Shown: piece by piece, positions 1,513 through 19,240 of the stretch | Layout: the number at the start of each line of letters is the position of its first letter | Numbering within the stretch: the stretch's first letter is position 1 | Source: Oscillospiraceae bacterium | Lineage (GTDB): Bacteria > Bacillota > Clostridia > Oscillospirales > Ruminococcaceae | DNA length: 64,000 nt | Assembly: GCA_031253495.1 (NCBI GenBank) | Contig: JAIRWC010000043.1 | Coordinates: 1-64,000 of the forward strand | Direction of reading: 5' to 3' | Made by a program: the position numbers and the translations under genes | Notes under the pieces: generated by a model | Database searches by the model: none | What the model saw: only the letters and a program-made list of their open reading frames with translations | Told to the model about the DNA's origin: nothing

Positions 1513-1514
1513 AA

Positions 1515-2021
1515 TCACCTCGTTTTATGTTTGTTTAATGTAAACTCGTAAACGAACACGTCTTTCCATTTGCCGTTCAGCGTCCCCGCTTCAATAAACA
1601 TTCCCGCCTCGCGGAACCCCGCCCGCTCGTGCAACCGAACGCTTGCGAGGTTTTCGGTGAAAATATACGAGTGTAGCGTCCACAGCCCGTGTTCCCCGGC
1701 GGAATCAATCAGCGTGTTGAGCAGGGCAAGCCCCGCCCCAAGACGCCGACGGCTTTTTTCAACGTAGACGCTTACGGCGGCTATGCCCGAAAAGTATTCC
1801 GCTCTGTAAATCGGCGAAAGCGCGGCGAACCCGATAACTTTCCCGTTTTCCTTGGCGACGGCGCGGTTGTTCGGAAGGAACCCCGCGTACCACTTTTCAA
1901 AATCAGCCGTTTCCGCCGCGAAGGCGTATTCGCCGCTTCTTATGCAGTCGTTGTAAATTTTGTGAGCCGCCGCGCCGCTCGCCTTGTCCATTTCGCAAAT
2001 ATTGAATATCTTTCGCCCCAC
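1515..2021 (-). CDS. GNAT-family N-acetyltransferase (phosphinothricin acetyltransferase-like)
   Basis: About 168 residues with the GNAT fold: a VSVYVEKSRRRLGAG strand-loop (acetyl-CoA pyrophosphate loop, consensus Q/RxxGxG/A) in the middle and the conserved NLASVRLHERAGF segment near the C-terminus. The best start is the GTG at 2021, because AGGAG lies 8 nt upstream and the ORF otherwise extends backwards through pylSn in another frame. It lies 4 bp after pylSn and overlaps the next gene's alternative start, so it is co-transcribed with the pyl genes. A GNAT is not part of the established Pyl pathway; possible roles are acetylation of a lysine- or amine-like compound. Function is unknown. 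Confidence 0.8.
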   Translation of the reverse strand: MGRKIFNICEMDKASGAAAHKIYNDCIRSGEYAFAAETADFEKWYAGFLPNNRAVAKENGKVIGFAALSPIYRAEYFSGIAAVSVYVEKSRRRLGAGLALLNTLIDSAGEHGLWTLHSYIFTENLASVRLHERAGFREAGMFIEAGTLNGKWKDVFVYEFTLNKHKTR

Positions 2022-2025
2022 AGTT

Positions 2026-2331
2026 TCATCTCCTGTCCGAAAATACCGTCGCCGCGTATTTTGAAAGTTTCCAGCCGGGAATGGCGCAAGCCTTGCAACT
2101 CTCCGAATATCGGCGGCTGCGGAGCCACCTCGCCGCGCGGCTGTTGCGGGAATCACGCACCGTGAACTTTTCGCCGCAATGGGTCGTCACGACGGCAAGG
2201 CACCCGCGGCGGTCGATTTCGCGTATTCCGTGCAGAACCCCCGAACGCGAGGGCCACAGCTTGATTTTTTCAAGCGTACTCAAAAGCGGTTGGTGCTTGC
2301 TGACGTAACGGGTCAGTTCTTTCTTTTCCAT
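2026..2331 (-). CDS. pylSn: Pyrrolysyl-tRNA synthetase N-terminal domain protein PylSn
   Basis: A 101-residue basic protein matching the tRNA-Pyl binding domain that is fused to PylS in Methanosarcina but is separate in bacteria. Visible family features are the HGIREID segment, the strand ending in DSRNSRAARWLR, and the pair of Cys/His-rich motifs around YSESCKAC. It grips the T-arm and variable loop of tRNA-Pyl, which is present at 8.9 kb. It starts 7 bp after pylD with the RBS inside the pylD stop region. As in other bacteria, it is separated from pylSc by pylB, pylC and pylD. Confidence 0.9.
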   Translation of the reverse strand: MEKKELTRYVSKHQPLLSTLEKIKLWPSRSGVLHGIREIDRRGCLAVVTTHCGEKFTVRDSRNSRAARWLRSRRYSESCKACAIPGWKLSKYAATVFSDRR

Positions 2332-2338
2332 ATAAAAT

Positions 2339-3142
2339 TCACCTTTCGGTTAGATATAAAACACACGCCAGCATGGCGATTGTGCCGAGTTCAAGCGGAT
2401 TGGCGATTGCCGCGCCGCATTTTTCGATAACCCGCGCGTTCGCGCCCAAGGGGATTCCCGGTAAGGACAAGACCGCGCCTTTTGCTATGTCGCGCTCCGT
2501 CAGAATGTCGGGTTTGGGCGTCGCGTCGAGAATGTACATCAACCCGCGTTCCCGCCAATCGGGAAAAGCCCGCAGCTTCGGTTCAGCCGCGATTGCCGCC
2601 GACAGAACCGACGGGTTATTGTCGAAAACATTAACCCTTGCGCCAAGCGATAACAAGTGTCTTGCCGCCGAAAGTCCGACGGGACCCAACCCCAAAACCA
2701 AAACTTCCCCGCCGCAAACGCCGCCCGCCGCAAGATTGAGCGCGCGCGCGAACGCGATTCCCGTAACGTCGGAGTTATAGCTCGCGGCTCGGCTGTTCAG
2801 GGAAATCGCCGCGTATTCGCGGTCGTCCGCCATAAAAACAACATCCGCGCCCTTTCGGTGAGCAATGCCCAACCCCGCGACGTCCGACTTTTCCGCGACA
2901 AACGCGTTACAGCCGACGTGGTTCAGTATCGCCCGAACGCTTTCGGCGAAACCGGCAATAATTCCCAGCCCGCTTGTCACGGGGATAACGGCGGCGGTTA
3001 CGCCTTTTAAGTCAGCCGAAAAAGGGAAGTCGATTTTCGCGGCGTTCAGCATTGTTTCACCGGTTAATGACGCGAATTTCGCGTCGTAAGCCGCTATGTT
3101 GCTTCCTATATCGGCGATTTCCTCGGGTTTGAGCCTTGACAT
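2339..3142 (-). CDS. pylD: Pyrrolysine biosynthesis protein PylD
   Basis: Catalyses the last step of pyrrolysine synthesis: oxidation of the terminal amine of L-lysine-N6-(3R)-3-methyl-D-ornithine and ring closure, using NAD. The protein (267 residues) has an N-terminal helical domain and a Rossmann fold with VLVLGLGPVG at residues 147-156. It overlaps the end of pylC by 37 bp and is followed closely by pylSn, so translation is likely coupled. Length matches known PylD proteins (about 260-270). Family assignment rests on fold, context and gene order. Confidence 0.93.
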   Translation of the reverse strand: MSRLKPEEIADIGSNIAAYDAKFASLTGETMLNAAKIDFPFSADLKGVTAAVIPVTSGLGIIAGFAESVRAILNHVGCNAFVAEKSDVAGLGIAHRKGADVVFMADDREYAAISLNSRAASYNSDVTGIAFARALNLAAGGVCGGEVLVLGLGPVGLSAARHLLSLGARVNVFDNNPSVLSAAIAAEPKLRAFPDWRERGLMYILDATPKPDILTERDIAKGAVLSLPGIPLGANARVIEKCGAAIANPLELGTIAMLACVLYLTER

Positions 3143-4245
3143 GAAAACGCCCTTTCCGTAAAATTGCCGCGAATGTTATCAACGCAAACGCGGAACTTCT
3201 CTTCGGCGTCGCTTTGGCTCTTTCCCGTAACTATAACCGCCGCGACCCATTCCTTTTTGTCGGGCGCGTAGTCGGTAATCATACTTTCAGCCCCGAACAG
3301 CCCGTCCTTTATAAGCAGGGGACCGCGCCCCGTTAAAATACGCTCGCCTTTTGAAACTATCCCCTTTTCCGAAACATGAATCTGCCTGTATATCGCGGTT
3401 TTTTTCCTTTGGATTTTTGCCGCGAAATCGCGGTAATTCAGCATAAGCTCCAATATGTTTACGCCGCTTGAATGATACACACTTATCGGCGTTTGGCTCG
3501 GAAGCCGCGCGTCTATTTCGATTACCCGAAGCCCGCCCCCCGAAGCGATTACCTCTATGTCAAACACCCCATTAACCCGTATAAGTTCCCCAAGCCTTGC
3601 CCCTATCGCGTAAAATTCCCTTTCAACACAGGCGGGAATGTCGCCGCCCGCTATCACACATTCGCAGTCGTAGTCCTTGTCGGTGATAATCTCGGTAACC
3701 TGCAGTAAATTGAAGCTTTTGCCGTCGCCGACCACTTCCAAAGAATAAGAGCGACCCGACAGGTATTCCTGTATTACCCACCCCGAATCAACTTTGTTAA
3801 GCTCTTCTTGATTGAGAATGAGCCTGACCCCGACGCTTCCGCTTTGACCGTCGGGCTTCGCGATAAGCGGGAACCCCGCTTTCGGGTAATGCAAAGGCGC
3901 GGGAATGTCGTTCTCGCGGAAGAAGTCGTCGGACTTCAGCTTTGACGAGGATAAAAGATAGGCGTTCAGGTCGAATAAGAACGGCTTTCCGCTTTTTCGG
4001 CAGTATTCCTCAAGCCGCGAAACAGCCGACAGGTTTTCGAGCGCGGGAAGAACCGCGTCCGCTTTCTCGACAAGCGGGAGCGTCGCCGCCTCGTTTTCAA
4101 TTTCAACGCAGTGGAATTCGTCGCACATGAGCGACGCTTCGGCGTTTTCGCGGCGGTCGGCGACAATCGTCGTCCACCCCGCCTTTTTAGCCAAGTAAAC
4201 CGCTTCCGCGGCTTGAAGCCGCCCCCCAGCAATAAGCAACCTCAT
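3106..4245 (-). CDS. pylC: Pyrrolysine biosynthesis protein PylC (ATP-grasp ligase)
   Basis: Joins 3-methyl-D-ornithine to the epsilon-amine of lysine with ATP. The 379-residue protein has the ATP-grasp layout: N-terminal Rossmann-like domain (RLLIAGGRLQAAEAV), central ATP-binding strand (PLIAKPDGQSGSVGVRL) and the metal-binding region with EIDARLPSQTP. The start ATG overlaps the pylB stop (ATGA). The gene ends in TAG at 3106-3108, itself an amber codon; suppression by Pyl would add only three residues before another in-frame TAG. The C-terminal tail overlaps pylD. Confidence 0.95.
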   Translation of the reverse strand: MRLLIAGGRLQAAEAVYLAKKAGWTTIVADRRENAEASLMCDEFHCVEIENEAATLPLVEKADAVLPALENLSAVSRLEEYCRKSGKPFLFDLNAYLLSSSKLKSDDFFRENDIPAPLHYPKAGFPLIAKPDGQSGSVGVRLILNQEELNKVDSGWVIQEYLSGRSYSLEVVGDGKSFNLLQVTEIITDKDYDCECVIAGGDIPACVEREFYAIGARLGELIRVNGVFDIEVIASGGGLRVIEIDARLPSQTPISVYHSSGVNILELMLNYRDFAAKIQRKKTAIYRQIHVSEKGIVSKGERILTGRGPLLIKDGLFGAESMITDYAPDKKEWVAAVIVTGKSQSDAEEKFRVCVDNIRGNFTERAFSCQGSNPRKSPI

Positions 4246-5315
4246 ATCGCCGCAACCCTTGAATTATATTTCACGCCGGCTTTCGCCGCCGCCAAAAACG
4301 CCGAATATTCCGCGTTTGCGGCGGCGCGAAGCCCCAACTCTTCCAATATCGGAGTCGCCGCCCTCAATGTTCGGCAACCGCTCCGTATGTCCTTTTCGCG
4401 CTGCGAAACCCCCATAAGCCCCGCGTCGGGCGGAATGAGCGAAGTTATCACGTTTGCGCCCGCGTTCAGCCGCGCTTTAAGCCCCTCCAACCCCTCGACG
4501 TCGAGCGACGCGGGAATCAGCCTGTCGGGGAACAGCAGCCGCATTACGGCAATGTCGAGAAGCTCGGTTTCCGTGTTCCCCAAAGAAAACTCCGAAGAAA
4601 ACTCAGCCATTGGAGTGCCTTCCTGCGGAACAAAGCGCATACTGCGTATCTGAAAGGCGTTGAGCCGTCGCATTTCCCCAAAAGAAACGGCGTGGTCGGC
4701 GGGGCTTTCGCCTATCCCCGCCATAATTCCCTCCTCCACAAGAATTCCGAGTGAAGCGGCATGCCTTTTCAGGTTCATTCTTTCGTCGAAATTCTGCCTC
4801 ACACGCCGCTTTTTAAACAATTCGCGGTTGTGGGTTTCCTGATAAAGCGCGAGCCAGTCCGCTCCGCTTTCCGCCGCCATTTCAAGGGCGCGGCGGCTTA
4901 TAACTCCGGGGGAAACCATCACCGAAAGTCCCGTGGTGTTCTTGACCTCGCGGATAATAGCGGCAAGCCGCGCGGGTTGTTCGGTGTAAAACTCGTCCTC
5001 TCCCATTGTCAAGTCAATCAGATTAACCCCGGATTTCTCAAGATTGACCGCGTGTTCGACAATCTCCGAATCGCTTTTGCGGTAGCGTTCGAGGGCGCGG
5101 TTGGAGCGGCGGCAGCAGCAAAACGCACAATCGTTGCGGCAGTGCGTGGAAAAGTAGACGAAACCGTATGAGAACACCTTGTTCCCGAAATGCTTTTGGC
5201 GGGTTTCGCGGGCGGCGGCGAAAATGAGTTCTCGGTCGCCGCTTGTCAGAAGGTATACGATTTCCTCATTTGACGGTGCGCCGTTTCGCAGTTTCTCCAA
5301 AATTTTCCGCGTCAT
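4242..5315 (-). CDS. pylB: Methylornithine synthase PylB (radical SAM)
   Basis: A radical SAM lysine mutase that rearranges L-lysine to (3R)-3-methyl-D-ornithine, the first committed step of Pyl synthesis. The CxxxCxxC iron-sulfur motif is seen as CRNDCAFC near residue 59-66, followed by a TIM-barrel BioB/HydE-like sequence. Length (357 residues from the ATG at 5315) is typical. A GTG two codons earlier (5321) is an alternative start. It lies 19 bp after pylSc and overlaps pylC. Confidence 0.95.
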   Translation of the reverse strand: MTRKILEKLRNGAPSNEEIVYLLTSGDRELIFAAARETRQKHFGNKVFSYGFVYFSTHCRNDCAFCCCRRSNRALERYRKSDSEIVEHAVNLEKSGVNLIDLTMGEDEFYTEQPARLAAIIREVKNTTGLSVMVSPGVISRRALEMAAESGADWLALYQETHNRELFKKRRVRQNFDERMNLKRHAASLGILVEEGIMAGIGESPADHAVSFGEMRRLNAFQIRSMRFVPQEGTPMAEFSSEFSLGNTETELLDIAVMRLLFPDRLIPASLDVEGLEGLKARLNAGANVITSLIPPDAGLMGVSQREKDIRSGCRTLRAATPILEELGLRAAANAEYSAFLAAAKAGVKYNSRVAAI

Positions 5316-5334
5316 TTTCACGCGACCCCCGATT

Positions 5335-6168
5335 TTATTTAACGTTCAGCGCCGAGCCGTCCAAATACGTTATGCTCCTGCCGTAAGCGCGGATTGTCCC
5401 GTTTTTTTCACGCGCGGCGAGCAACCGTTCCAGCCCGAACCCTATACCTACCCAGCTGTCGGTTATTCCCCACGCCGCGTCCAACGGGTGCGGTCCCATT
5501 GACGACGAGCCAAGCTCCAAGCCGCCGCACATTACGTCAAGGGTTTCGCCGTAGACCGTCGATTCTTCCGTTTCAAACGCGTAATCCGCAATACCCGAGG
5601 CTTTCATAACCAACGCCGCAAGTTCCCTTATTCGGGATTGCCGGGCTTCAAGCTCGGTTCCCCACTCCGCCAAATTCAGCATGGTAAACTCTTCCATGTG
5701 CGCCGCCCCGCTTGAATCCTTTCGGAAACAGGAGCCGATTTCAAACACCCGCAACGGCTTTTCGCAGACGTTGAGCAGGCTTTTTGAGATATAATACAGG
5801 TTCGGGGCGAGCATGGGGCGCAGACAGCGGTTGGCGTCTATCCAAAACACTTGGTTGTTCAGCGGGTGTTCCGAGTCAAGCGACATTCGCCGCAGAAATT
5901 CCTTTGAAATCACCGTGGGCGTTTCCACCCTTGTGAAGCCGTTTTTTATCAGCTCGGCGGAAAGGCGTTCCCGCAGGACGGACAGCGACGGCTGCCGCTC
6001 CCCCGAAAAAAGGCTTCGGATACGCTCCTTGGTTTCACGAGCGAATTGCTTTTCCAAAAGGGCGAAGGTTTTGTTCCTTGTCCCCGCGTCCAAAAAATTC
6101 CTGTCGGTTTCCGCCTTGGGACAGCCCAATTCCAAAAGCCGCTCCCTTTGCGTCGCGGTGAAGTTCAT
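5335..6168 (-). CDS. pylS: Pyrrolysyl-tRNA synthetase catalytic subunit PylSc
   Basis: Class II aminoacyl-tRNA synthetase that charges tRNA-Pyl with pyrrolysine. At 277 residues it is only the catalytic part; the tRNA-binding part is the separate PylSn. Class II motif 2 (VFEIGSCFRKDSSG) and motif 3 (GIGFGLERLL) are present. In the pocket, EFTMLNLAEWG keeps the Asn that in Methanosarcina (N346) gates the amide, while the C348 position is Ala, and VYGETLDVM keeps the mobile-loop Tyr (Y384). It begins 16 bp after the RamA/URO-D fusion gene and heads the pylScBCDSn string. Confidence 0.97.
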   Translation of the reverse strand: MNFTATQRERLLELGCPKAETDRNFLDAGTRNKTFALLEKQFARETKERIRSLFSGERQPSLSVLRERLSAELIKNGFTRVETPTVISKEFLRRMSLDSEHPLNNQVFWIDANRCLRPMLAPNLYYISKSLLNVCEKPLRVFEIGSCFRKDSSGAAHMEEFTMLNLAEWGTELEARQSRIRELAALVMKASGIADYAFETEESTVYGETLDVMCGGLELGSSSMGPHPLDAAWGITDSWVGIGFGLERLLAAREKNGTIRAYGRSITYLDGSALNVK

Positions 6169-6184
6169 GCGTTTTCTCCTTCGG

Positions 6185-8902
6185 TCATTGTTTTATGAGC
6201 GCGCCGACCCAAACGATGGGAATCGGCATATCGCCTTGATTTGCGCAGCCGCCCCCGATAAACCGCGTTTTCGGTTCGTCCGCGAGTTTGAACAGCAATT
6301 CGCGGTAATCCGTACCGACGGGAACGCGGCGCGGCGAAAGGCGCAAACACCCGCATTTTTGCAGGGAAGAAGACGTCTTTCCGCATAAATGCACCACGCT
6401 CTTTTCAAGATAAGGTTCCGTATCGCAAAGGATTTTCAAAATAGCGGGCGCCACTAACGCCCCGTACAGCCTTTCACCCAAAAGCGCGGCGGTTCCGGCG
6501 GTATCCGCGAACGAAACCACCTGAACGCCCCTTTCGAGCGCCTGCTTTATATAAATCGTCAAAAATTCGGAAACCGTTTCCAAAGCCTCCTTAACCGTCG
6601 CTTCGTCGGCAATCATTCCGCGCACTAAGCGCGTCGGCTCAACGGCGGAAGCCAACACGGAAAAAGGACCCGAAACGTCGAATATAACGCGTTTCCCTTT
6701 GGCGAACCGCAATGCCGCCAGCGCGGTCTGGACAGGGCGGCTTAACACAAGCCCGTTCGCGTCGGGGAGCCTTTTTAGGGCGCTTACCCTCTGATATGGA
6801 TAATCCGCCGCCGCGAGAGCGCCGTTTTTCCAGCTGAACTCGACGCCGACGGCCTGCGCTTCCGCCGTTTGCGTTACCGGCAGACGCAGATAAGAAACGC
6901 CCTCGGTCTCCGAAATGGTTTTCGCGGCGTAAAACACAGATTGCGGCATCGCGCCGTCGCAGTTCGCGAAAGGCGTCAACTCCTCCGGGACAAACCGCGT
7001 ATCCAACCCGCCGCACTGAAAATTTCCGGTAAGGTTGGCGGTGAACAAGTCCTTGGCGTGGGGGATGGCTATCGCGGCGGCAAAGTATTTGCCGAAGTCG
7101 TCGCGCGTCGCGTTTTCGACGAAGGTAATCTCTTTGGCTATCCGGCTCGCTTCGAGACGTTTGTCCGTGTTCAAGAGCGCGAGGCGCGCCCCGCCGCCCG
7201 CCGCGTTCCCCGCGACGCTTACGTCGGACAGCGGGCAATCGGGGAACAGACCCAATTTTAAGGCGTTTTCCTTATCTATATAATTCCCGAACCCGCCGGT
7301 CAGCACCACGTCGTCGGCTTTTGAAAGCCCCGCCGCGGCGAGCAGAGCCTGCGCTCCGCTGTACAGCGCCGCTTTTGCCAACTGTACGGCGCGGACGTCT
7401 TTCTGGGTGAAAACAATGTCCCGCCCGTTCGGGCTTTCCGCGAAGTGCAGGACATACTCAAGCCTTTTCCCGTCGGCGCCGACGCGAACGCGTTTTGAAC
7501 CCAAGCCTGAAACGAATTTCCCGTCGGCGTCGATTACGCCCGTAACCGCAAGCTGCGCCGTTATGTCCAAAACGGCGGAACCGCACAAGCCGCGCGGCGT
7601 TGTTTCCCCTATCACGGATAAGGCGGGTTCCAGCGTTACGGGGTCGATTTTCACGTACTGAACCGCTCCCGCTTCCGCCCTCATTCCGCAGGTTATCTGC
7701 GCCCCTTCGAGCGCGGGGCCGGTGGCGCAGGATGTCGCGTACAACCTGCCCTTTGAGGAAAGAACAATTTCACTGTTGGTACCGATGTCGATAATCAAGC
7801 GGTTTTTATCCTGATTGTACGGTTCTTCCGAAATGAGCGCGCCCACGCAGTCGGCACCGATGAACCCCGCTACGGACGGCAGGCAGTGAACGTTCCCGCC
7901 GGGCAGGATGGAAAAGCCCAAATCCCGCGCCTTTATATCCGTGCTTTCCAAGAACGTGGATATAAACGGCGACACGCTGATGAAATCGGGCGGTATATTC
8001 AGGGCGATGTGGTGCATCACGGTGTTGAAAACCAGCGTCAGTTCGCATATGTCGTCCGCGCTTATACCCTCCGCCGAAGCCATTTCGGAGATAAGACCGT
8101 TCACGGTGTCTTTCAGCGCGTTGTTCAGCGTTTCAAGCCCGTTTTCGTTGTACATACAGTAAGCCGCCCTTGTAACCACGTCCTCGCCATAGGTTATCTG
8201 CGCATTTAAAGCGGATGAAGTCCCAAGCAGCCTCCCGGTTTTCAAATCGCAAAGATAAGCGGCGACGGTCGTCGTTCCTATATCCGCCGCGACACCGTAG
8301 ACGCCGGGGGCGTCGCCGGGGCGAACCGCGATAATTTCGTCGCCGTACAGGACAAGCGCGGTAACGTCCCATTTCGACTTGCGCAAAATCCGAGAAATCC
8401 GTCTCGCCGCGCGGTAGTCCACGCGCAAATCCGAAAGGTAGGGCGCGACGGAGTAAAGCGCGTCTTTAATGCGGGTAAAATCGTCGCGGTTGTCGTTCAG
8501 CGACGGCGGCTCTAATTTCAGCCGATAGGCGGCGACGGCGGGTTTAAGCGCGTTGCTCTTAGCGCGGTCGCTTGAAAGTATTCGGGGTAAATCCACGCGG
8601 CTCTCCGGCGCGACGAAAACGGAAATGTCGCCGTATATCCTCGCGCAGCAGGCCAACCTTACGCCTTCAATCCGTTCGGAAAGGGTTAAAAGCCGAGTTT
8701 CCTCCCCGCTTAACTTTGAAGTCGCGCCCGCGTCTTTCGTAATCACGCGAACCTTGCATTTCCCGCAGGTTTTGGCGTAACCGCCGCAGGACGACCTCAC
8801 CGAAACCTTAGCCTCTATGGCGGCGTTCAGTATGGTTGTTCCGCGGGCGACCTCGTGTTTTATCCCGGTGGGATAAAACGTAACCGCGCACAGATTGACC
8901 AT
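6185..8902 (-). CDS. Fusion of RamA-like corrinoid activase with a URO-D/MtbA-type methyltransferase domain
   Basis: About 905 residues. N-terminus: a [2Fe-2S] ferredoxin-like domain with C39, C46 and C49 (CGGYAKTCGKC). Middle: DUF4445/ASKHA activase core with VAADIGTTTVAAY and IDIGTNSEIVLSS phosphate loops, as in enzymes that reduce Co(II) corrinoid protein using ATP. C-terminus (from about 630): a URO-D-like domain with the zinc-site motif VVHLCGK at about residue 836 and a later FIGGGC that could give the third ligand, as in MtbA/MtaA methylcobamide methyltransferases. The start at 8902 has GGGGG upstream; the longer ORF runs into the tRNA. It is the first protein gene after tRNA-Pyl. A separate activase lies at 11.2 kb, so this copy may serve another corrinoid protein. 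Confidence 0.88.
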   Translation of the reverse strand: MVNLCAVTFYPTGIKHEVARGTTILNAAIEAKVSVRSSCGGYAKTCGKCKVRVITKDAGATSKLSGEETRLLTLSERIEGVRLACCARIYGDISVFVAPESRVDLPRILSSDRAKSNALKPAVAAYRLKLEPPSLNDNRDDFTRIKDALYSVAPYLSDLRVDYRAARRISRILRKSKWDVTALVLYGDEIIAVRPGDAPGVYGVAADIGTTTVAAYLCDLKTGRLLGTSSALNAQITYGEDVVTRAAYCMYNENGLETLNNALKDTVNGLISEMASAEGISADDICELTLVFNTVMHHIALNIPPDFISVSPFISTFLESTDIKARDLGFSILPGGNVHCLPSVAGFIGADCVGALISEEPYNQDKNRLIIDIGTNSEIVLSSKGRLYATSCATGPALEGAQITCGMRAEAGAVQYVKIDPVTLEPALSVIGETTPRGLCGSAVLDITAQLAVTGVIDADGKFVSGLGSKRVRVGADGKRLEYVLHFAESPNGRDIVFTQKDVRAVQLAKAALYSGAQALLAAAGLSKADDVVLTGGFGNYIDKENALKLGLFPDCPLSDVSVAGNAAGGGARLALLNTDKRLEASRIAKEITFVENATRDDFGKYFAAAIAIPHAKDLFTANLTGNFQCGGLDTRFVPEELTPFANCDGAMPQSVFYAAKTISETEGVSYLRLPVTQTAEAQAVGVEFSWKNGALAAADYPYQRVSALKRLPDANGLVLSRPVQTALAALRFAKGKRVIFDVSGPFSVLASAVEPTRLVRGMIADEATVKEALETVSEFLTIYIKQALERGVQVVSFADTAGTAALLGERLYGALVAPAILKILCDTEPYLEKSVVHLCGKTSSSLQKCGCLRLSPRRVPVGTDYRELLFKLADEPKTRFIGGGCANQGDMPIPIVWVGALIKQ

Positions 8903-8926
8903 ACGAACGCCCCCTTCCCGAAAATG

Positions 8927-8995
8927 CGGAGAATCCGGGAGTCGCACCCGGCTGCGCGGAGTTAGAGTCCGCGTAATCGCTCCGATTCATCCTCC
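8927..8995 (-). tRNA. pylT: tRNA-Pyl, anticodon CUA (amber suppressor)
   Basis: The minus strand folds into a tRNA with all hallmarks of tRNA-Pyl: 7-bp acceptor stem (one G-U), a single base (G8) before the D arm, a 4-bp D stem with a 5-nt loop lacking the usual GG, a 6-bp anticodon stem (CGCGGA/TCCGCG), a CTCTAAC loop with anticodon CTA, a 3-nt variable loop (CAG) and a 5-bp T stem with a TGCGACT loop. The discriminator is G and CCA is not encoded. It lies between mtmB and the RamA fusion gene, upstream of pylSc. Confidence 0.97.
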
Positions 8996-9067: not shown

Positions 9068-10459
9068 TTATTTGTCCCAGTATTTAAGGCCCAATCCGCG
9101 AAGTACCCCGACCGCTTCCTCATAAACCGACACATATTCGTCCGTCGGCGTCAGCGTTTTCACGTCGTAGCACTCGGAGAACGTCTTGCCTTTCGGCGCG
9201 GTCTTATAATCCTTCTCGTAACCCGCCACCAGCTTGTCTAAAAGAACGTTGACCTCCGAAACGGGCATCCCCGCGACCGCGTAAGCCGCTTCCGCCATCA
9301 TCCGCGCTTCCATCGGCGTGAACATATCGGTAAGGACGCCCTTCGCCGACGCTACGCCGGACAGAATTTCCCTCCCGCTCGCGGTGTCGGTTATAGCCTG
9401 CGCCGCCGTTTCCAAAAGGCACATCACGGTACACGGCCCCGCTAAGGTGTAATACTGGTTTCCAAGTATAAAACGCGTGTGTTTCTCAACAGCCATCGCC
9501 GCGTGCCCGGCAACGGCGAGAGCCTCTCTCGCGGTCGTAATGCCCCAGCGCACATGAATGGGCCCGTCAAGGTGCCACGTCGCGCCAAGCATGACAAACG
9601 AGTTGATAGTCGTCGCGACGTCAATAATCGCGGTTTCCTCAAGCCCGCCCGCATAGCCGCCGAAAATCGGCATCTGCTCCACCATAACGACGTTCCCCGC
9701 CAAAGCATAGTGAGCGCCAACGACCAACGCGCCTACGTCAATCTTGAGCTCGTTCAGCTGAGACACCTCATGGCTGTCAGACTGCCTCATACCGCCCGGA
9801 AAATCCGCTGAAATAACACCGGCCGGCGATAAAGAAGTTTCGTTCCCCTAAAGCCCCATGCCGCTTCGTCCCGCTCTGCACTGCGCGTCGCGCACAAACA
9901 GGGCTTCGGAGCGAACCGCCATAATTTCCCACGGGCTGTTCGGGACGGGGTCTTTCCCCATAACCGTTTGCAAAACGCCGTCTACAATCGTATCCACAAG
10001 CGGTTCTTGCGCGTATGCTTGGTGAATAGGCAGGAACAGTTCCTCGGAGCAGGGGGAACCCGTCGGGCCGCCTTGGATAATCGGAGCCTTCGAGTCCGAG
10101 TGCGCCCTCGGAACGACGTTAATCGCCTCTTTCCCTTCGCCGTATATAAACGAGTCCGGCGCACCCGCGATTGCCTGAAGAATTTCGTCCCGCGTGTACT
10201 TGACCACCCTGCCCGTGTCGATACAGTAAATTCCCGTCGTTTCGAGCATTTCAAGCCCCGCCTGCCAAAGACTGTCTATCAGCTTCGGGTCTTCGGGAAT
10301 CATCTTGGTCTTGTCGATTTTGACGTCGTATTTCTTTTTTAATGCCGTGGCGGCTTGGGGAACGATTTTATAGTCCCAGTCGTTTTCCGCAACCTTTTGA
10401 CCTGTTTTGGCGCGGTCGTACACGTCGTAAACGGTTACCCGCTTGCCTATTGTTTTCAA
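9068..10459 (-). CDS. mtmB: Monomethylamine:corrinoid methyltransferase MtmB, with in-frame amber (pyrrolysine) codon
   Basis: Moves the methyl group of monomethylamine to Co(I) corrinoid on MtmC, releasing ammonium. Two ORFs in the same frame are separated only by TAG at 9848-9850; together they give 463 residues, the usual MtmB length (about 458). The codon is residue 204, in the context RSGMGL-(Pyl)-GNETSLS, matching the Methanosarcina MtmB site RPGMGV-Pyl-GPETSLS at residue 202. Downstream, DSHEVSQLNELKID, EQMPIFGGYAGG and TDTASGREILSGVASAKG are strongly conserved. The start is a TTG with AAGGGA upstream. It follows mtmC by 25 bp. The true stop is TAA. Confidence 0.97.
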
Positions 10460-10484: not shown

Positions 10485-11144
10485 TTATCCCCTTTTCGCG
10501 GCGAGCAGCTTCTTCGCGATTTCGACCGATTCGGGGGCGGTGTCGCCGTAACCGTCCGCGCCGATTTCGTCGCACCATTCTTTTGAAACGGGCGCGCCGC
10601 CGTAAATAACGATGAACTTGTCGCGTATGCCCTCTTCCTCGAGCAGACGCAAAATATCCTTTTGGGCGGGCATGGTGGTGGTCATAAGCGCGGAACCGGC
10701 GATAATATCCACCTTGTACTCCTTCGCTTTCGCCACGACCTCTTCCACGGGAACGTCGCGCCCCAAGTCAAACACCTCAAAATTGCTCGCCGAAAACATT
10801 GTTTTCACGATGTTCTTGCCGATGTCGTGAATGTCGCCCTGCACCGTATGAACGAGAACCCGCCCGTTTGACGACGCCGCTTTTTCTTCGTCGGACATCC
10901 CCTCGGTGAGGATAGCCACCGCTTTCTCAAACGCTTCCGCCGATACCAGAAGATGCGGCACGAAAACCTCGCCCTCGTCGAATAAATCGCTCATCTCGGC
11001 CATTCCGAGGGAAAGACCCTGCGTGATTGCCGTGTTCGCGTCTATCCCCGCTTCGGCGGCGGCGCGGGCCGCCTCTTCGGCGAGGTCGACGTCCATTTCG
11101 GTGATGGAATCCTTGAGTTTTGCCAAAATCTCTTCCTTTGTCAT
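10485..11144 (-). CDS. mtmC: Monomethylamine corrinoid protein MtmC
   Basis: A 219-residue corrinoid carrier with helical cap (1-85) and B12 domain; GDIHDIGKN gives His106 as cobalt ligand, and ADGYGDTAPESVEIAKKL closes the Rossmann fold. Its place directly before mtmB makes it the likely cognate MtmC, shuttling methyl groups from MtmB to an MtbA-like acceptor enzyme. It has a good RBS (AAGGAGG) before the ATG at 11144. It is the most diverged of the three corrinoid proteins here, with a GDIH rather than GDTH motif. Confidence 0.93.
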   Translation of the reverse strand: MTKEEILAKLKDSITEMDVDLAEEAARAAAEAGIDANTAITQGLSLGMAEMSDLFDEGEVFVPHLLVSAEAFEKAVAILTEGMSDEEKAASSNGRVLVHTVQGDIHDIGKNIVKTMFSASNFEVFDLGRDVPVEEVVAKAKEYKVDIIAGSALMTTTMPAQKDILRLLEEEGIRDKFIVIYGGAPVSKEWCDEIGADGYGDTAPESVEIAKKLLAAKRG

Positions 11145-11169: not shown

Positions 11170-12843
11170 TTACGAAAAACTCATTGATTTTACGAACAGC
11201 CTGTCAAAGCCCTCTTGGTTGGCAAGTTCCACGCAGTTGACGTTTTTCACCAACTTTTCCATTTCCGCGCGGCAGGGCATATTGAGTAAAAACGCCTTGC
11301 CGCCCGATTTCGACGTGTTGCCCACAAATTCAATCCTGTCCTCGAAGTCCCTCGGTAAAATCGCGATGTTTATAAGGCTTTTCGCTTGCAGATGATATCC
11401 GAAAGAACCCGCGATTTGCACCGCCGTTACGTCGTCGTAACCGACCTTCTCGCTTATAAGCAGGGCTTCCACCCCCGAACGCACCGCGCCTTTGGCAAGC
11501 TGAACCTGCCGGACGTCGCTTTGCGTCAGATATACGCCGTCCGCGACCAAAAACGCGGGCTTCCCCCCGAAAGACACGACGCGTTCGCCCAAAGCGGCGG
11601 GGTAGCCGCCTTTTTCGGGAGGAACAAACTTGCCGTTCGCGCCGATTACGCCGACCCGCACAAGCTCGCCCACAATGTCGAACAGACCGCTCCCGCATAT
11701 TCCGACGGGAGCCGCGCCGCCGATGGTGCGTATTTCAATTTCGCCGTTTTCGCCGATGCTGAAGTATTCAATCGCGCCGACTCCCGCCCTCATTCCGTTG
11801 GTGATGTTCATTCCCTCAAAAGCGGGACCCGCCGCCGTCGAAGTCGCCGAAAGGCTTCCGTCGCGGGCGATTACCATTTCGCCGTTGGTGCCTATGTCGA
11901 TAAACAGCGTCGTGCCTTTTCTCTCGTGCAGACGCGCCGCAAGCACCCCCGAAGTTATGTCGGGTCCGACGTAAGCGGAAATCACGGGAGGCAGGTAAAT
12001 CAGCCCGAACGGCGAAATATCCAGCCCGTATTCCGGCGCGCCTATGTGGTTGCCGCCGAGGAGCTTCGGTATGTAGGGGTACTTGCCCAAAGAAGCGGGG
12101 TCGGCGTTCGCCGCCAACGTAATCATCGTGGTGTTGCCGCTGTATACCGCCTCATATATAAATTTGCGTTTAACGCCCGTTTTTTCGCAAAGCTCGCTTA
12201 TCATACCGCGGAACTGCTTCGTGATGATTTCGTACATCTCTTTCAAGCCGTCGGGGTTGGACGCGAACTTAATACGGGTTAAAACGTCCTGCGCGTGAAG
12301 GCTCTGCGGGTTCAGCGCGGAGATTGAATCAAGCTCCTCGCCCGTCAGCGCGTCGATTAAGGCGCACACCAAGGTCGTGGTTCCTATGTCGATTGCAAGA
12401 CCGTAGTTTTTATCGGTTGTGTCGCCGTCTTCCGTTCCGATAACGGCGCCGTCCGCGAGGACGGATGTTTTCCCGCCGTCGAAAACTTTGGTGATATAAT
12501 TTACCGTATCATACGAGAAACTGTGCCCGTCGCTTAATATTTTGAGCGTTTTGTTGTGTTTTTCCGTGGAAACGGTTTCAACGGTTACGTCGCCGTGAAC
12601 CGCCGCTTGGCAGGCGAGCGCGAACCCGTCCGCCGACTCCTCGCCCGACACCTTATGCCGGTCGTCGGTAATAACCAGCGCGTCAAGCCCTTCGATTACC
12701 CGAACCTTGCACTTGCCGCAGGTACCCATGCCGTCGCAGGGCGCCTCTATGACCACGCCCGCGCTTCTCGCCGCCGTCAGAAGCGACGCGCCTTGTTCCG
12801 CCGAAACAGAGACATTATCGGGTAAAAAGGTAATTCGGGGCAT
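11170..12843 (-). CDS. RamA-like ATP-dependent corrinoid protein reductive activase
   Basis: Re-reduces inactive Co(II) corrinoid protein to Co(I). About 557 residues: an N-terminal [2Fe-2S] ferredoxin domain with C36, C42 and C45 (CDGMGTCGKC), then the DUF4445/ASKHA core with LAIDIGTTTLVCAL and FIDIGTNGEMVIA nucleotide loops and the VAGSFGYHLQ-type C-terminal segment (here IAGSFGYHL). The ATG at 12843 is preferred over a GTG at 12855 because AAGGAG sits just upstream of it and touches the GTG. Between mtbA and mtmC in the operon. It lacks the C-terminal URO-D domain of the paralogue at 6.2 kb. Confidence 0.93.
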   Translation of the reverse strand: MPRITFLPDNVSVSAEQGASLLTAARSAGVVIEAPCDGMGTCGKCKVRVIEGLDALVITDDRHKVSGEESADGFALACQAAVHGDVTVETVSTEKHNKTLKILSDGHSFSYDTVNYITKVFDGGKTSVLADGAVIGTEDGDTTDKNYGLAIDIGTTTLVCALIDALTGEELDSISALNPQSLHAQDVLTRIKFASNPDGLKEMYEIITKQFRGMISELCEKTGVKRKFIYEAVYSGNTTMITLAANADPASLGKYPYIPKLLGGNHIGAPEYGLDISPFGLIYLPPVISAYVGPDITSGVLAARLHERKGTTLFIDIGTNGEMVIARDGSLSATSTAAGPAFEGMNITNGMRAGVGAIEYFSIGENGEIEIRTIGGAAPVGICGSGLFDIVGELVRVGVIGANGKFVPPEKGGYPAALGERVVSFGGKPAFLVADGVYLTQSDVRQVQLAKGAVRSGVEALLISEKVGYDDVTAVQIAGSFGYHLQAKSLINIAILPRDFEDRIEFVGNTSKSGGKAFLLNMPCRAEMEKLVKNVNCVELANQEGFDRLFVKSMSFS

Positions 12844-12869
12844 GGAAAAAACCACTCCTTAGCTTAAAC

Positions 12870-13898
12870 TTATTGCGGACTTTTCACCGTTTCGGTGAAG
12901 GCGTTGATGTTCGCGATGGGGGTGGAGGTTGACAACCCGCAGGCGGGCGCGATAATGTCGATGTTGTTTTTCAACAGAACCCGCGTGCCTTTTTTGACTT
13001 TTTCGGCGTCTTCAAACTCAAGCATGATTGTACTTAAATTCCCCATGGTGTTAATATGCGGGAAAAGGTTCTTGATATCCCTCAAGCTCACGAAAGCGTC
13101 CACGCTTAACGCGTCGGAGCGCAGCTGCGCCACCGAAAGCTTTACCGCTTCCATTTTGCCGCAGATGTGAACAATCGCGGGCTTGCCCATTTTGTGAATC
13201 GCGTCAACCAGCTTGTTCAGGTAGAACACCGCGTACTCGTCGAACATCTTCGGACCGAGAATCTCCCCCGTCGCCGTCGGGTCGGCGATTGATATAACGT
13301 CAACCCCCGATTCCGCCATTAGCCCCGCGTAGTGAATAAGGCAGTCGGTTACATAGTCGATAACCTTGTGGGAGTTCTCCTTGTCCTTGCGAAGCTGCTT
13401 CAAAAACGTCATGGGGTCGATTATCGAACCCGCCGTGCTTATCGGTCCCGTAAGACTTCCGATAACCGGCGTGTCGGGGTGCTTTTTCGACAGGGCGTGT
13501 ATGGTGTCCGCAATCGCTTGAATACGCTTGTTGTCGTCGAACGCCTTCATTTCCGGGAAAACGACGTCCGCGGCGGTCGCGAATTTTTCCTTTTGGATTT
13601 TCGGCTCACACTCAAGCGTTCCGTAGTTGATTTCGCTGCCGAGAACCTCCGCTTCAACCGTCATGCAAAACGGAATCCCGAAGTTCTCAAACCCCGTCAT
13701 GCGGCTCACGTCCTCGGCAAGCTCGGTCATAAGCTCTTTGGAATGGTGCGCGTCCGGCAACGTATGCCCCGTCGCGTTCATAACGTCCACAATGGCGGCG
13801 TTCATCATGCCGCCGGGACAGATTACCGGCGGTCTGTCGGAAGTCTTTCCGCCGAGCTTTCGCGCGAGCCGTTCTTTTGGTGAAATAGTGTCTGACAT
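12870..13898 (-). CDS. URO-D-family methylcobamide methyltransferase (MtbA/MtaA-like)
   Basis: A 342-residue URO-D-fold zinc methyltransferase that takes methyl from a methylated corrinoid protein. VHICGKMEAV and the later IAPACGLS supply the His and Cys zinc ligands typical of MtaA/MtbA. The start segment SPKERLARKLGG is typical of the family. In methanogens the acceptor is coenzyme M; a Clostridia-type host should lack CoM, so tetrahydrofolate or another acceptor is more probable, but the sequence does not decide this. It lies between a corrinoid protein gene and the activase gene, in one operon. Confidence 0.9.
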   Translation of the reverse strand: MSDTISPKERLARKLGGKTSDRPPVICPGGMMNAAIVDVMNATGHTLPDAHHSKELMTELAEDVSRMTGFENFGIPFCMTVEAEVLGSEINYGTLECEPKIQKEKFATAADVVFPEMKAFDDNKRIQAIADTIHALSKKHPDTPVIGSLTGPISTAGSIIDPMTFLKQLRKDKENSHKVIDYVTDCLIHYAGLMAESGVDVISIADPTATGEILGPKMFDEYAVFYLNKLVDAIHKMGKPAIVHICGKMEAVKLSVAQLRSDALSVDAFVSLRDIKNLFPHINTMGNLSTIMLEFEDAEKVKKGTRVLLKNNIDIIAPACGLSTSTPIANINAFTETVKSPQ

Positions 13899-13931: not shown

Positions 13932-14582
13932 TTATTCCTCGAACAGCTTATGCGCCAAGCGAACCGCTTCGGCGGCGTTCCGAGAATACCCGTCAGCGCC
14001 GATTTTGGTCGCGAACCCCTGCGAAATCGGTCCGCCGCCCACCACAACCTTGAACTTGTCGCGAATTCCCTGTTCCTCCAAAATTGTGATAACGTCAGCC
14101 ATCGCGTCCATTGTGGTCGTCATGAGCGTGGAAATGCAAATCAGCTCCGCGCCCTCGCTTTTCGCCTTTTCGACGAACTCGGCGGCGGGAATGTCGCGCC
14201 CCACGTCGATTACGTCGAACCCGCCCGTTTCGAGCATGAGCTTGACCAAGTTCTTTCCTATGTCGTGGGTGTCGCCCTCGATTACGCCGATGATTGCCTT
14301 GCGCTTAACCTTGGTGTCGTCGGACTTGATGTGCGGTTTCAGAATGTCGATTCCGACGTTCATGGCGTCGGCGCACATGAGAAGCTCGGGGACGAAGTAT
14401 TCCTCCTCCTCGAAAAGCTGCCCCGCCCGCTCCATTCCGGGGGTCAAACCCTTGTCAATCGCCTCGAACGCGTCCAATCCTTGAGCTACCGCCTCGTTCG
14501 ACAACTCCGCCACCAAATCCTCGTCCATGTCGACAATCGCGTCGGACATCTTTTGGTATAATTCTTCTTTTGATACGGCCAT
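13932..14582 (-). CDS. Corrinoid protein, MtbC/MttC family
   Basis: A 216-residue corrinoid carrier: cap domain, then EGDTHDIGKN with His106 as cobalt ligand, DVGRDIPAAEFVEKA and the closing GADGYSRNAAEAV. Its closest paralogue in the window is the corrinoid protein at 0.9 kb. The ATG has an AAGGAGG upstream. It lies between the two URO-D-type methyltransferase genes, so it may be the methyl donor to one of them rather than to MtmB's partner. Confidence 0.9.
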   Translation of the reverse strand: MAVSKEELYQKMSDAIVDMDEDLVAELSNEAVAQGLDAFEAIDKGLTPGMERAGQLFEEEEYFVPELLMCADAMNVGIDILKPHIKSDDTKVKRKAIIGVIEGDTHDIGKNLVKLMLETGGFDVIDVGRDIPAAEFVEKAKSEGAELICISTLMTTTMDAMADVITILEEQGIRDKFKVVVGGGPISQGFATKIGADGYSRNAAEAVRLAHKLFEE

Positions 14583-14675: not shown

Positions 14676-15710
14676 CTATCCCGAGTATGCGTATGCCGTA
14701 TCGACCATAGCCTTGATGTTCTCAATGGGGACGGCGGGCGGAATGTCGCAGCCGGGCATCATCAGATAACCGCCTTTTTCGCCCTCGGCGTCCTTGATAC
14801 AGCGGATACAGTCCTCGCGAACCTGTTCGGGGGTGCCGAGCTGCATGATTCCGACGGGGTCCATGTGTCCGAGGAAGGCGATTTTGCCGCCGAGAGCCGC
14901 GCGGGCGTCGGCAAGCGAAACCTTGTAGTCAAACGACATCGCGCTTGTCCCCGTTTCGGGAATTATGTCGAGGAATTTGGTTGTATCGCCGCAAATGTGC
15001 AGTTGTTTGGCGAAGGGCTTATCCCCGATTAGGTCGTTGGTTTTTTTCAAGTTGGGCAACGCGAACTCGATAAACTGCTTTTTGGAAATCATGTCGCCCG
15101 AAGCGCAGGGTTCGGCTTGCGCGACGTACTCGGCCCCCGCGTCCAAGAACAAGTCCCAGTACCGCGCCACCATTTGCGTCGTAACCTCCATCATGGCGTG
15201 AACGGCGGGCTTGTCTTTGATAAGCATCTTCATGAACCGCTCGGTTCCGAACATCAGCCCCGCAAGCGTCAAGGGTCCCCACTGGCTTATTCCGAGCATG
15301 ACCTCGCCGCCGATTTTTTCCTTTAAAATGCGGGTGTTCTCAAGCATTGCCTGTATGCCGGGGTCTTTGGGAATGTCGTCAAGGTTGATTTTGTCAATGT
15401 CGGCGGGGTTGTCGAAGAGCGGTTCGGCTACGTCCGAAGCCACGCCGGGGTTGTGGAAGTTGATTTTGGTCCCGACCGCCCGCATGACCAAATTGTTACA
15501 GCCCGCCGCGCACCAAACCAAGTCGGAACGTATTTCCTTCTGCGCCTCGATTGTGTAAGCCGCCGATTCTTCGGGGGGCATATCAAACGAGTCCTGCAAC
15601 GACTTTCCTTGCCGCGCGTAAACCCACACGCCGCCCGAAAGCAAAGTTACGGGAATTCGCGGGGTGGGTTCGAGCTTAATCGCCTTTTTGAAGATTTCTT
15701 TCGGCTTCAT
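14676..15710 (-). CDS. URO-D-family methyltransferase (MtbA-related)
   Basis: First gene of the methylamine operon, about 344 residues. It has the URO-D barrel with LHICGDTTKF and the second-ligand motif MMPGCDIPP, pointing to a zinc methyltransferase and not a true uroporphyrinogen decarboxylase. It is only distantly like the second enzyme at 12.9 kb, so the two probably serve different donors or acceptors. Start: the ATG at 15710 has GGGAGG upstream; the ATG at 15728 would place that RBS inside the gene. It ends in TAG (14676-14678); amber suppression would add 15 residues before TAA/TAG-type stop. Confidence 0.85.
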   Translation of the reverse strand: MKPKEIFKKAIKLEPTPRIPVTLLSGGVWVYARQGKSLQDSFDMPPEESAAYTIEAQKEIRSDLVWCAAGCNNLVMRAVGTKINFHNPGVASDVAEPLFDNPADIDKINLDDIPKDPGIQAMLENTRILKEKIGGEVMLGISQWGPLTLAGLMFGTERFMKMLIKDKPAVHAMMEVTTQMVARYWDLFLDAGAEYVAQAEPCASGDMISKKQFIEFALPNLKKTNDLIGDKPFAKQLHICGDTTKFLDIIPETGTSAMSFDYKVSLADARAALGGKIAFLGHMDPVGIMQLGTPEQVREDCIRCIKDAEGEKGGYLMMPGCDIPPAVPIENIKAMVDTAYAYSG

Positions 15711-15739
15711 GGTCGTGTCGCCTCCCATTGATTAACTTG

Positions 15740-15766: not shown

Positions 15767-15804
15767 TTATTAAAGATACAGTTGATGTGTTTTTTAGGTG
15801 ACAG

Positions 15805-17217
15805 TCAAAAACCTTCCTCGCGCAGCACCTTAGCCATTTTTTGGCATCCGCAACGGATATCCTCTTCCGACATTGAGTTAAACCCCATTAAAAACGTGTT
15901 TTCATAAGCCTTTTCAGTTTCGTGGCAGTGCGGCTTGATGCTGTATATGCGTACGCCCGCCTGTTCCAACCTGCCGATAAGGCGGTTTTGGTCTTTGCAG
16001 CCTATAACCTTTATCAGCGTGTGAACGCCGGCGGGGTAGCGCACAATCCGCACGCTGTTCGGGAGGTGCGTTTTAATCGCGTCCGCCAGTATGTTGTATT
16101 TTTTTTCGTTCAGCGCCGCGATTTTCCTCAGGTGGCGCTCTAACGTCCCGTTTTCGACGATGCGCGCGAGCGCGTTTTGGTGATAACTCGGCAGCGCCGA
16201 GTTAAAATACCGATATTTTTTCTCGTACCTTTCCACCAGCTTTTTCGGCAAAACCAAAAAAGCGCAGCGAATGGACGGCGACAGTATTTTTGAAAGCGTG
16301 TTCATATAGATTACCCGCCCGTGCTTATCCAAAGACTGGAGCGACGGAATGGGAATCATGCCGTAACGAAACTCGCTGTCATAGTCGTTTTCAATAATAT
16401 AGGCGTCTTTGCCGTCCGCCCATTTTAACAGCTTGTTCCGCGTCGATATCGAAGTTACGGTTCCCGTCGGGAACTGGTGCGACGGCGTGATGTACAGTAA
16501 ATTGCATCTGCTTTTTTTCAGTATTTCACAGGACACGCCGCTTTCCACTACGGGAACGGACGTTATGGCGTATGATTTGCTTTCGATATAATGGCGCATG
16601 GCGACGTATCCGGGTTCCTCATAGGCGAACCGGTTCTTCCCCGGGGGGAGCAGCGACGTCAGGATTTCCATGGCGTACTGCGTTCCGGCGCAGATAATCA
16701 TCTGTTCCGGAACGCAATTCACCCCCCTGTGCCGGAACAAAAAGCCGCACAGCGCCTTTCGCAAGGCTAAACTGCCTTTATTGCTCTCGTATGATATTTC
16801 GTGCCCGCACGCCTCCGTCAGCAACGCCTCGTCCACGCACTTTTTCCATTTTGTCCAAGGGAAAAGCCCCGATTCTATACTGTCGTACTCGAAATCATAT
16901 TTAACCTTGGGCTTTCGGGGCGAAACCGCGGCAAAAACGGGTTCGGACCGAACGGTTTCGGCTTCTTCAAAAAAATCGCGGGAAATATCCTCGACAAAAT
17001 ACCCCGTTCCGTGAACGGCGGTAACGTACCCTTCCGCAAGGAGTTGGGAATACGCCCTGTCGACCGTGTTGCGGCTGACGTTCAGTTCCTTCTCCATAAC
17101 GCGCAACGACTTCATCTTCGTTCCTTTGGGAATCCGACCCGTCGCTATGTCCTCCTTCAGTATCCTGTACAACTGCTCGTACATGGGTTCCCTGCTTTCA
17201 GAATCGAGGTATACCAT
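15805..17217 (-). CDS. MocR/PdxR-type transcriptional regulator (GntR winged helix fused to aminotransferase fold)
   Basis: A 470-residue MocR-subfamily GntR regulator. Residues 1-75 form the winged helix (EPMYEQLYRILKEDIATGRI, then NVSRNTVDRAYSQL). The rest is a class-I aminotransferase domain; the TLSKILSPSIR segment carries the Lys that would bind PLP. Such proteins sense PLP-linked or amino compounds. It lies directly upstream of, and on the same strand as, the methylamine operon, with about 95 bp between them, and on the other side faces amt. It is the prime candidate for local control. It has its own promoter and an attenuator-like leader. Confidence 0.88.
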   Translation of the reverse strand: MVYLDSESREPMYEQLYRILKEDIATGRIPKGTKMKSLRVMEKELNVSRNTVDRAYSQLLAEGYVTAVHGTGYFVEDISRDFFEEAETVRSEPVFAAVSPRKPKVKYDFEYDSIESGLFPWTKWKKCVDEALLTEACGHEISYESNKGSLALRKALCGFLFRHRGVNCVPEQMIICAGTQYAMEILTSLLPPGKNRFAYEEPGYVAMRHYIESKSYAITSVPVVESGVSCEILKKSRCNLLYITPSHQFPTGTVTSISTRNKLLKWADGKDAYIIENDYDSEFRYGMIPIPSLQSLDKHGRVIYMNTLSKILSPSIRCAFLVLPKKLVERYEKKYRYFNSALPSYHQNALARIVENGTLERHLRKIAALNEKKYNILADAIKTHLPNSVRIVRYPAGVHTLIKVIGCKDQNRLIGRLEQAGVRIYSIKPHCHETEKAYENTFLMGFNSMSEEDIRCGCQKMAKVLREEGF

Positions 17218-17349: not shown

Positions 17350-17484
17350 GAAAAAGATTTTATGCCCCCGTTTTTTTGTGAAGATAAACAGTTTCCATCG
17401 CGAACGCATTGCGGTTTTTGTGATATTTTCGATAAAAACGATTCCCGCGTCGCGGCTGTCACGGGGAAAAGGCGTACTGTCATT
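17336..17484. promoter_or_regulatory. Repeated ACTGTCATT motif between mocR and amt
   Basis: ACTGTCATT occurs at 17336-17344 and 17476-17484 within the 345-bp divergent gap. One copy overlaps the mocR promoter and the other lies about 80 bp before amt. TGTCATT also occurs beside the methylamine promoter at about 15760-15766. Candidate regulator sites. Apart from these, the mocR leader and the mocR promoter, no gene is seen in this gap, and no clear sigma-70 promoter for amt. Confidence 0.35.
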
Positions 17485-17562
17485 AAAGAAATGCGCTAAC
17501 TGTGTCTTTATAACGCAACAGTTTTGAGGTAGACTGAACTGTATTGAAAGGGGGTCAGACAG

Positions 17563-18828: not shown

Positions 18829-18848
18829 TATTAGGGAGGTATGACGCA

Positions 18849-19214: not shown

Positions 19215-19240
19215 CGCCGTTAAGGGGGACGTTTATAATT

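Follow-up and report, generated by a model that had tools for sequence, protein, structure and literature searches.

An in-frame amber codon (TAG, 9848..9850) in mtmB, the gene of a monomethylamine methyltransferase, is very probably translated as pyrrolysine (Pyl), the rare 22nd amino acid, in an Oscillospiraceae bacterium. The DNA analysed (the window) is a stretch of 64,000 nucleotides, positions 1 to 64,000 of contig JAIRWC010000043.1 in assembly GCA_031253495.1. An earlier note made from the letters alone had read the codon in this way. We infer incorporation from the complete pyl gene set beside mtmB, from a TAG in the same column of 42 of 42 compared bacterial loci, and from selection on the codons that follow the TAG.

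Reading frame of mtmB and its amber codon

The mtmB gene occupies 9068..10459 on the minus strand, from a TTG start at 10459 to a TAA stop at 9068-9070. Its 463 residues include codon 204, whose TAG is the sole interruption of the frame. The frame length and the flanks RSGMGL and GNETSLS, which the earlier note had reported around the TAG, were both confirmed. So was its statement that the two parts match MtmB, as the Pfam model PF05369 (MtmB) matches the read-through frame over model positions 1-450 of 450 (E 3.2e-217), with one TAG inside. The MtmB1 structures 1tv2 and 1l2q align to the window MtmB over residues 4-459 (E about 1e-173), and codon 204 falls on Pyl202 of the crystallised Methanosarcina enzyme, the site that the note had recognized from the flanks. 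The residues aligned to Glu259, Gln333 and Tyr335 of Methanosarcina MtmB1, presumably its active-site residues, are kept. A profile search of the draft genome (1.67 Mb, 45 contigs, 98% complete) gave a single MtmB match, and profile searches of the same genome for MttB and MtbB gave none. By these profiles, no Pyl methyltransferase besides mtmB was found in the genome.

The Pyl column was compared in 42 bacterial mtmB loci (41 distinct places, L003 being the same as L020), of which 40 came from a scan of named genomes and two from genomes of the class. The peptide patterns of the scan avoided the Pyl site and were derived from three Pyl-MtmB sequences, so that the scan favours close relatives. 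L003, the copies of L016 and other copies were retained in the count, and L058 gave no match. All 42 loci carry TAG in the Pyl column, with zero further stops in the aligned frame, which excludes chance. Archaeal copies have TAG in six cases of seven and AAG in one. Another residue at this position in close relatives had been named beforehand as the result that would speak against Pyl, and none was seen; the sole sense codon is the AAG of archaeal L056, at 49% identity to the window MtmB. This copy (L056 11690-13051, minus strand) is a second MtmB-like gene in a Methanomassiliicoccaceae metagenome-assembled genome (MAG) that also has a TAG copy, and its Pyl column codes for lysine. It may be a non-Pyl MtmB of the sort covered by PMC13044021. 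A second archaeal copy in L052 (4252-5616) has one additional in-frame stop besides the TAG column. The mtmB record of L020 carries an UNVERIFIED_CONTAM title (Acetivibrio alkalicellulosi), and its host label is therefore uncertain.

Judged by its codon changes, the region directly after the TAG is selected as protein. Between the window and L039, its nearest relative, 18 of the 19 codons after the TAG keep their residue, with 7 synonymous changes and 1 nonsynonymous change. The nonsynonymous and synonymous divergences (dN/dS) are 0.061/1.24 after the TAG and 0.095/1.74 before it. Three further pairwise comparisons keep 16-18 of the 19 residues, with 2-9 synonymous changes. The mean synonymous entropy of the 20 codons after the TAG is 1.47 bits, inside the range of the gene (1.10-1.57).

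Some observations weigh against Pyl at this codon. The synonymous divergence is saturated in several of the pairwise comparisons, the comparison with L014 holds just 2 synonymous changes in the 19 codons after the TAG, and TAG terminates 20 of 178 open reading frames (ORFs) sampled on other contigs and 13 of 50 window ORFs besides mtmB (ORFs of at least 150 amino acids, picked by length without a gene finder). The last of these would fit a true stop, with mtmB broken into a product of 203 residues and possibly another protein from an internal ATG at 9790, and under the standard code the two mtmB pieces are indeed separate ORFs. Such a stop is highly improbable, given the uniform TAG column without a second stop, the full pyl set adjoining mtmB, and the conservation as protein of the codons between the TAG and the internal ATG; selection there is not explained by termination and restart at that ATG. 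Insertion of another amino acid at UAG204, or leaky termination, is the least probable explanation of all, since the AAG copy of L056 is only a distant homologue and tRNA-Pyl(CUA), both synthetase parts and pylBCD are all present, in a gene order common with L039.

Pyrrolysine gene set

The predicted Pyl coding system is complete, with tRNA-Pyl(CUA), PylSc and PylSn, PylB, PylC and PylD. Its closeness to mtmB, also claimed in the earlier note, was verified, all of the genes lying on the same (minus) strand within 7.9 kb. The tRNA-Pyl gene (8926..8995, found by ARAGORN) is located between mtmB and a gene for a RACo-URO-D fusion. The protein genes are pylSc (5335..6168), for the catalytic part of the pyrrolysyl-tRNA synthetase; pylB (4242..5321), for methylornithine synthase; pylC (3106..4245), for 3-methylornithine--lysine ligase; pylD (2339..3142), for 3-methylornithyl-lysine dehydrogenase; and pylSn (2026..2331), for the N-terminal part of the synthetase. 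Each of the five proteins scores above its own NCBIfam cut-off. Among solved structures, PylSc matches 3dsq and 2zni best, both of them Desulfitobacterium proteins. As folded, the tRNA has CUA as its anticodon, an anticodon stem of 6 bp, a single base separating the acceptor and D stems, and a variable loop of 3 bases, a short variable loop being a hallmark of tRNA-Pyl. The other three features are named as hallmarks in passages of PMC8318568. Rfam at its gathering score did not pick up the tRNA, although ARAGORN did find it.

A PYLIS structure after the UAG has been proposed for some genes and is no defining need of Pyl coding. Rfam gave no match to a PYLIS-type RNA after the UAG. The UAG windows of 38 sequences (L003, L042, the partial L045, L048 and L049 excluded) had an unusually low consensus energy, yet without covariation. 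Among 29 sequences, the UAG windows showed the largest departure from synonymous shuffling, none of 300 shuffles being as low, with relatedness uncontrolled; the departure is small, and the consensus energy is only -2.1 kcal/mol.

Use of TAG in the genome

As TAG ends many other ORFs, it is still an ordinary stop in this genome, and Pyl decoding would compete with termination. Extensions beyond stop codons were studied in the window together with a sample of 241,476 bases, which cover about 18% of the genome. The frame runs on for 200 codons or more after 8 of 34 TAG codons and after 14 of 194 other stops (p 0.007), or after 7 of 33 TAG codons when mtmB is left out (p 0.019). Ten TAG junctions besides mtmB were viewed (extensions of 63-1041 codons; argC/argJ checked with Pfam, the remainder by eye), and they look like neighbouring genes in frame, which mostly explains the excess without proving the point. 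Further Pyl genes at TAG junctions were considered and rejected, as the ten viewed junctions resemble adjacent genes sharing a frame. At two long-extension junctions (argC in the window; L083 5376-7196) the TAG lies within a TAGGAG string, similar to a ribosome site, before the next gene. The TAG at 55077-55079 ends argC, and argJ is next in the same frame, so that amber suppression would give an ArgC-ArgJ fusion.

MocR regulator and candidate operator

A gene for a MocR-family regulator (15805..17217, minus strand) adjoins the cassette formed by the methylamine and pyl genes. The chances appear about even that this is a bacterial code expansion with a dedicated switch, in which the regulator, binding pyridoxal phosphate (PLP), would sense an amine and activate the cassette, amtB/glnB and, in some species, tRNA-Pyl directly. 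The protein has the domains that define the MocR family, a GntR-type DNA-binding domain and a fold-type-I aminotransferase-like domain, the latter with a lysine within an SK motif. Across its gene from the cassette lies a gene for an AmtB-family ammonium transporter (17563..18828, plus strand), followed by P-II genes at 18849 and 19241; the three genes together span 17563-19612. Candidate operators are located upstream of the cassette (15767..15805, minus strand) and upstream of amtB (17476..17514, plus strand). Each contains a direct repeat of ACTGT at 23 bp, and the first is followed by a TATAAT matching at 6 of 6 positions. The two promoters have 26 of 39 bases in common, including the repeat, and a search of 241,476 further bases of the genome gave no copy of the exact repeat at 23 bp.

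Motif spacings were counted in 44 sources, the window and 43 loci, after the near-identical L016, L042 and L055 had been dropped. The repeat takes two forms, ACTGT at 23 bp and ATTGT at 24 bp. A[CT]TGT followed by AA[CT]TGT had 7 occurrences at 23 bp and 20 at 24 bp, compared with 8 in total over 27 other spacings. When YCTT and a -10 element were added and one mismatch was allowed, the counts were 9 at 23 bp and 24 at 24 bp, with 0-4 at each of 18 other spacings and 22 for these together. Control DNA of 350,792 bases gave one weak operator match. The site lies directly before tRNA-Pyl in two loci, L028 (site 5820, tRNA 5941) and L032 (site 626, tRNA 714). The -10 element starts 29-33 nt, mostly 32 nt, past the second half-site and behind a poor -35, a layout that looks activator-like. 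Passages of PMC5320631 give direct repeats as a usual MocR target, and CTGGACYTAA direct repeats as the sequence bound by TauR, an activator of the MocR family.

MocR matches were searched for in 20 other MtmB genomes, in this genome and in three genus mates. At least 38% identity was reached in 14 of the 20, and in 12 of the 20 the best match of the genome lies inside the mtmB locus by coordinates. The best match in the genome of L020 is about 22 kb off, that of L026 is on another contig, and the three genus mates have matches of merely 23-24%. The operator is present in 13 of the 14 genomes with such a MocR match and in 0 of the 6 without one (one-sided Fisher p 1.8e-4), a generous p value, given that the motif was discovered in the window and then tuned with the same loci. 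Four of the 14 genomes are Desulfosporosinus; with these counted once, the figures are 10 of 11 and 0 of 6. The mtmB-linked MocR gene of L022, a MAG, is broken by an in-frame TAA (4788-6169).

The regulatory proposal has its own counter-evidence. The NCBIfam PdxR model NF052282 matches the window MocR with 445 bits, over a curated cut-off of 320, which speaks for control of vitamin B6 unless the label is too wide. L017 has a MocR and no operator site, and the operator of L018 is weak. The regulator next to the cassette could then be an ordinary PdxR of vitamin B6 metabolism, with another regulator bound to the repeat, and the two forms of the repeat would agree with this. That alternative is possible and the less likely of the two, in view of the location of MocR within the mtmB locus in most of the genomes with a match, the co-occurrence of regulator and operator, and the direct-repeat form of the site. 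Both operator sites of the window precede genes of the methylamine cassette or amtB; no search for pdx genes was made.

If the MocR protein is the switch, it would activate the cassette and amtB/glnB through the direct-repeat operator, and Pyl decoding would be conditional. As a guess, its effector would be monomethylamine or an amino acid of the Pyl pathway that forms an aldimine with PLP.

Methylamine cassette and proposed pathway

The remaining cassette genes are all on the minus strand. The gene at 6185..8902 (start taken at the ATG near 8902) encodes a RACo-type corrinoid activase with a fused C-terminal URO-D domain, which has an HLCG...C motif. The same single frame, of 864-1004 amino acids from stop to stop, is found in 9 other mtmB loci, and RACo and URO-D are separate frames in others, such as L033 and L041. 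The corrinoid protein at 10485..11144 is likely MtmC, as it scores above the cut-off of TIGR02370 and has a DIHDIG motif. At higher coordinates come a second RACo-type corrinoid activase (11170..12855), an MtbA-like methylcobamide methyltransferase of the URO-D superfamily with a zinc-type HICG...C motif (12870..13898), a second corrinoid protein (13932..14582) and a second URO-D-superfamily protein (14676..15728), which is the first gene of the cassette. A third corrinoid protein (874..1518), below the TIGR02370 cut-off, is located at the far end. The nearest solved structure to the MtbA-like protein is 4ay7, and this protein is likely a second methyltransferase. AmtB beside the cassette may import methylammonium; of 46 mtmB loci searched, 12 have an AmtB homologue and 9 have one of P-II.

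Going by the biochemistry established for these families, the products of pylBCD would make Pyl from two lysines, PylSc and PylSn would charge tRNA-Pyl, and the tRNA would decode UAG204. The Pyl of MtmB would then bind and activate monomethylamine, and MtmB would pass its methyl group to the Co(I) of the corrinoid protein (MtmC) with release of ammonium. The RACo-type activases would restore Co(I) by reducing the corrinoid, and the MtbA-like enzyme would hand the methyl group on to an acceptor. The best-known acceptors of URO-D-type methyltransferases are thiols, which makes a thiol and tetrahydrofolate (THF) equally likely here. A profile search of the genome for CdhC/AcsB (acetyl-CoA synthase) gave no match, which counts against the proposed pathway; Wood-Ljungdahl acetogenesis was rejected for this reason, though MetF and formate-THF ligase were found in the genome.

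Origin of the cassette

The cassette was most likely acquired horizontally, as judged from gene content and similarity, rather than being the product of a misbinned contig. Of 71 genomes under the genus label, one has a PylS above the cut-off, and of 197 genomes of the family, one has an MtmB match, in both cases this genome; 3 of 391 genomes in the class have an MtmB match. A search of the plasmid database PLSDB gave no MtmB match. L039, a Gracilibacteraceae MAG, carries the cassette in identical gene order with 62-88% identity: MocR, URO-D, corrinoid protein, MtbA-like, RACo, MtmC and MtmB, then tRNA-Pyl, RACo-URO-D, PylSc, PylB, PylC, PylD and PylSn. Quick trees place L039 as sister to the window for MtmB, PylSc and PylB (Shimodaira-Hasegawa-like approximate likelihood ratio test, SH-aLRT, 99, 100 and 98).

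Vertical inheritance with loss in the relatives, or a wrongly binned contig, is an unlikely alternative explanation. It draws on the breadth with which genus and family are drawn (identities of the alanine racemase (Alr) part of a flanking fusion are about 30-41%, except in G620 and G621), on the incompleteness of many compared genomes and the 45-contig draft state of the bin, and on the merely mild oddness of the cassette composition (0.118 versus 0.065 in the rest of the window; sampled stretches 0.069-0.162). Against it stand the rarity of PylS and MtmB in the genus and family, and the contrast between the cassette, which is close to L039, and its flank. Outside the cassette, at 22062-24566, the window has a MurF-Alr fusion, which is present full-length in the same-genus G620 with 47% identity, whereas the L039 genome has MurF and Alr in separate frames with 34% and 33% identity to the fusion. 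In most other genomes under the genus label, the matches to the two parts are at separate locations, and this single flanking gene is a modest control for origin.

Relation to known systems

Bacterial Pyl-MtmB is already known, and the window is a further, well-supported case by homology and gene content. Bacterial members are among the 1,061 MtmBs, Pyl and non-Pyl, in a tree shown in PMC13044021, and bacterial Pyl-MttB proteins were found in a metaproteome according to a passage of PMC9768040. Methanosarcina barkeri MtmB1 (1l2q, 1nth, 1tv2-1tv4) is alike in its full-length homology, in UAG/Pyl in the same column and in the equivalents of Glu259, Gln333 and Tyr335. The window differs from M. 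barkeri in its bacterial host, its split synthetase and its activases, which are of RACo type rather than archaeal RamA type. Separate genes for PylSc and PylSn are also found in the Desulfitobacterium-type synthetase. Bacterial loci in Desulfosporosinus, Acetobacterium fimetarium and Parasporobacterium have the same TAG column and pyl genes nearby, whereas the window cassette adds a second corrinoid/MtbA-like/RACo module, in an order common with L039. The segment 11170-15728 resembles type 1 mlp clusters (PMC10418091) in gene types, with a corrinoid protein, a RACo-type activase and two URO-D proteins, and differs in being linked to MtmB/Pyl; a type 1 cluster is defined by having one or more proteins of each of the clades Mlp2 and Mlp3.

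The regulator is similar to GabR, TauR and PdxR in domain make-up and in the lysine of the SK motif, and its direct-repeat operator is as described for many MocR transcription factors in passages of PMC5320631. It differs from known MocR regulators in its predicted targets, which are methylamine/Pyl genes and amtB/glnB. A full-text literature search, covering open-licence papers only and hence no proof of absence, found no paper that links MocR with pyrrolysine or methylamine. In the regulon survey PMC5320631, the main text mentions neither methylamine nor pyrrolysine.

The present case sits in a lineage whose examined relatives lack the Pyl system, and in a genome that retains TAG stops. The regulator with its candidate operator is a part worth following, since the predicted MocR operator is a concrete, testable answer to the question of how bacteria could switch Pyl decoding on and off, and it suggests an inducible element that Pyl-based code expansion might use. 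If the proposal is true, UAG would serve as a sense codon chiefly in the presence of methylamine, and the host would keep its ordinary TAG stops after acquiring the cassette.
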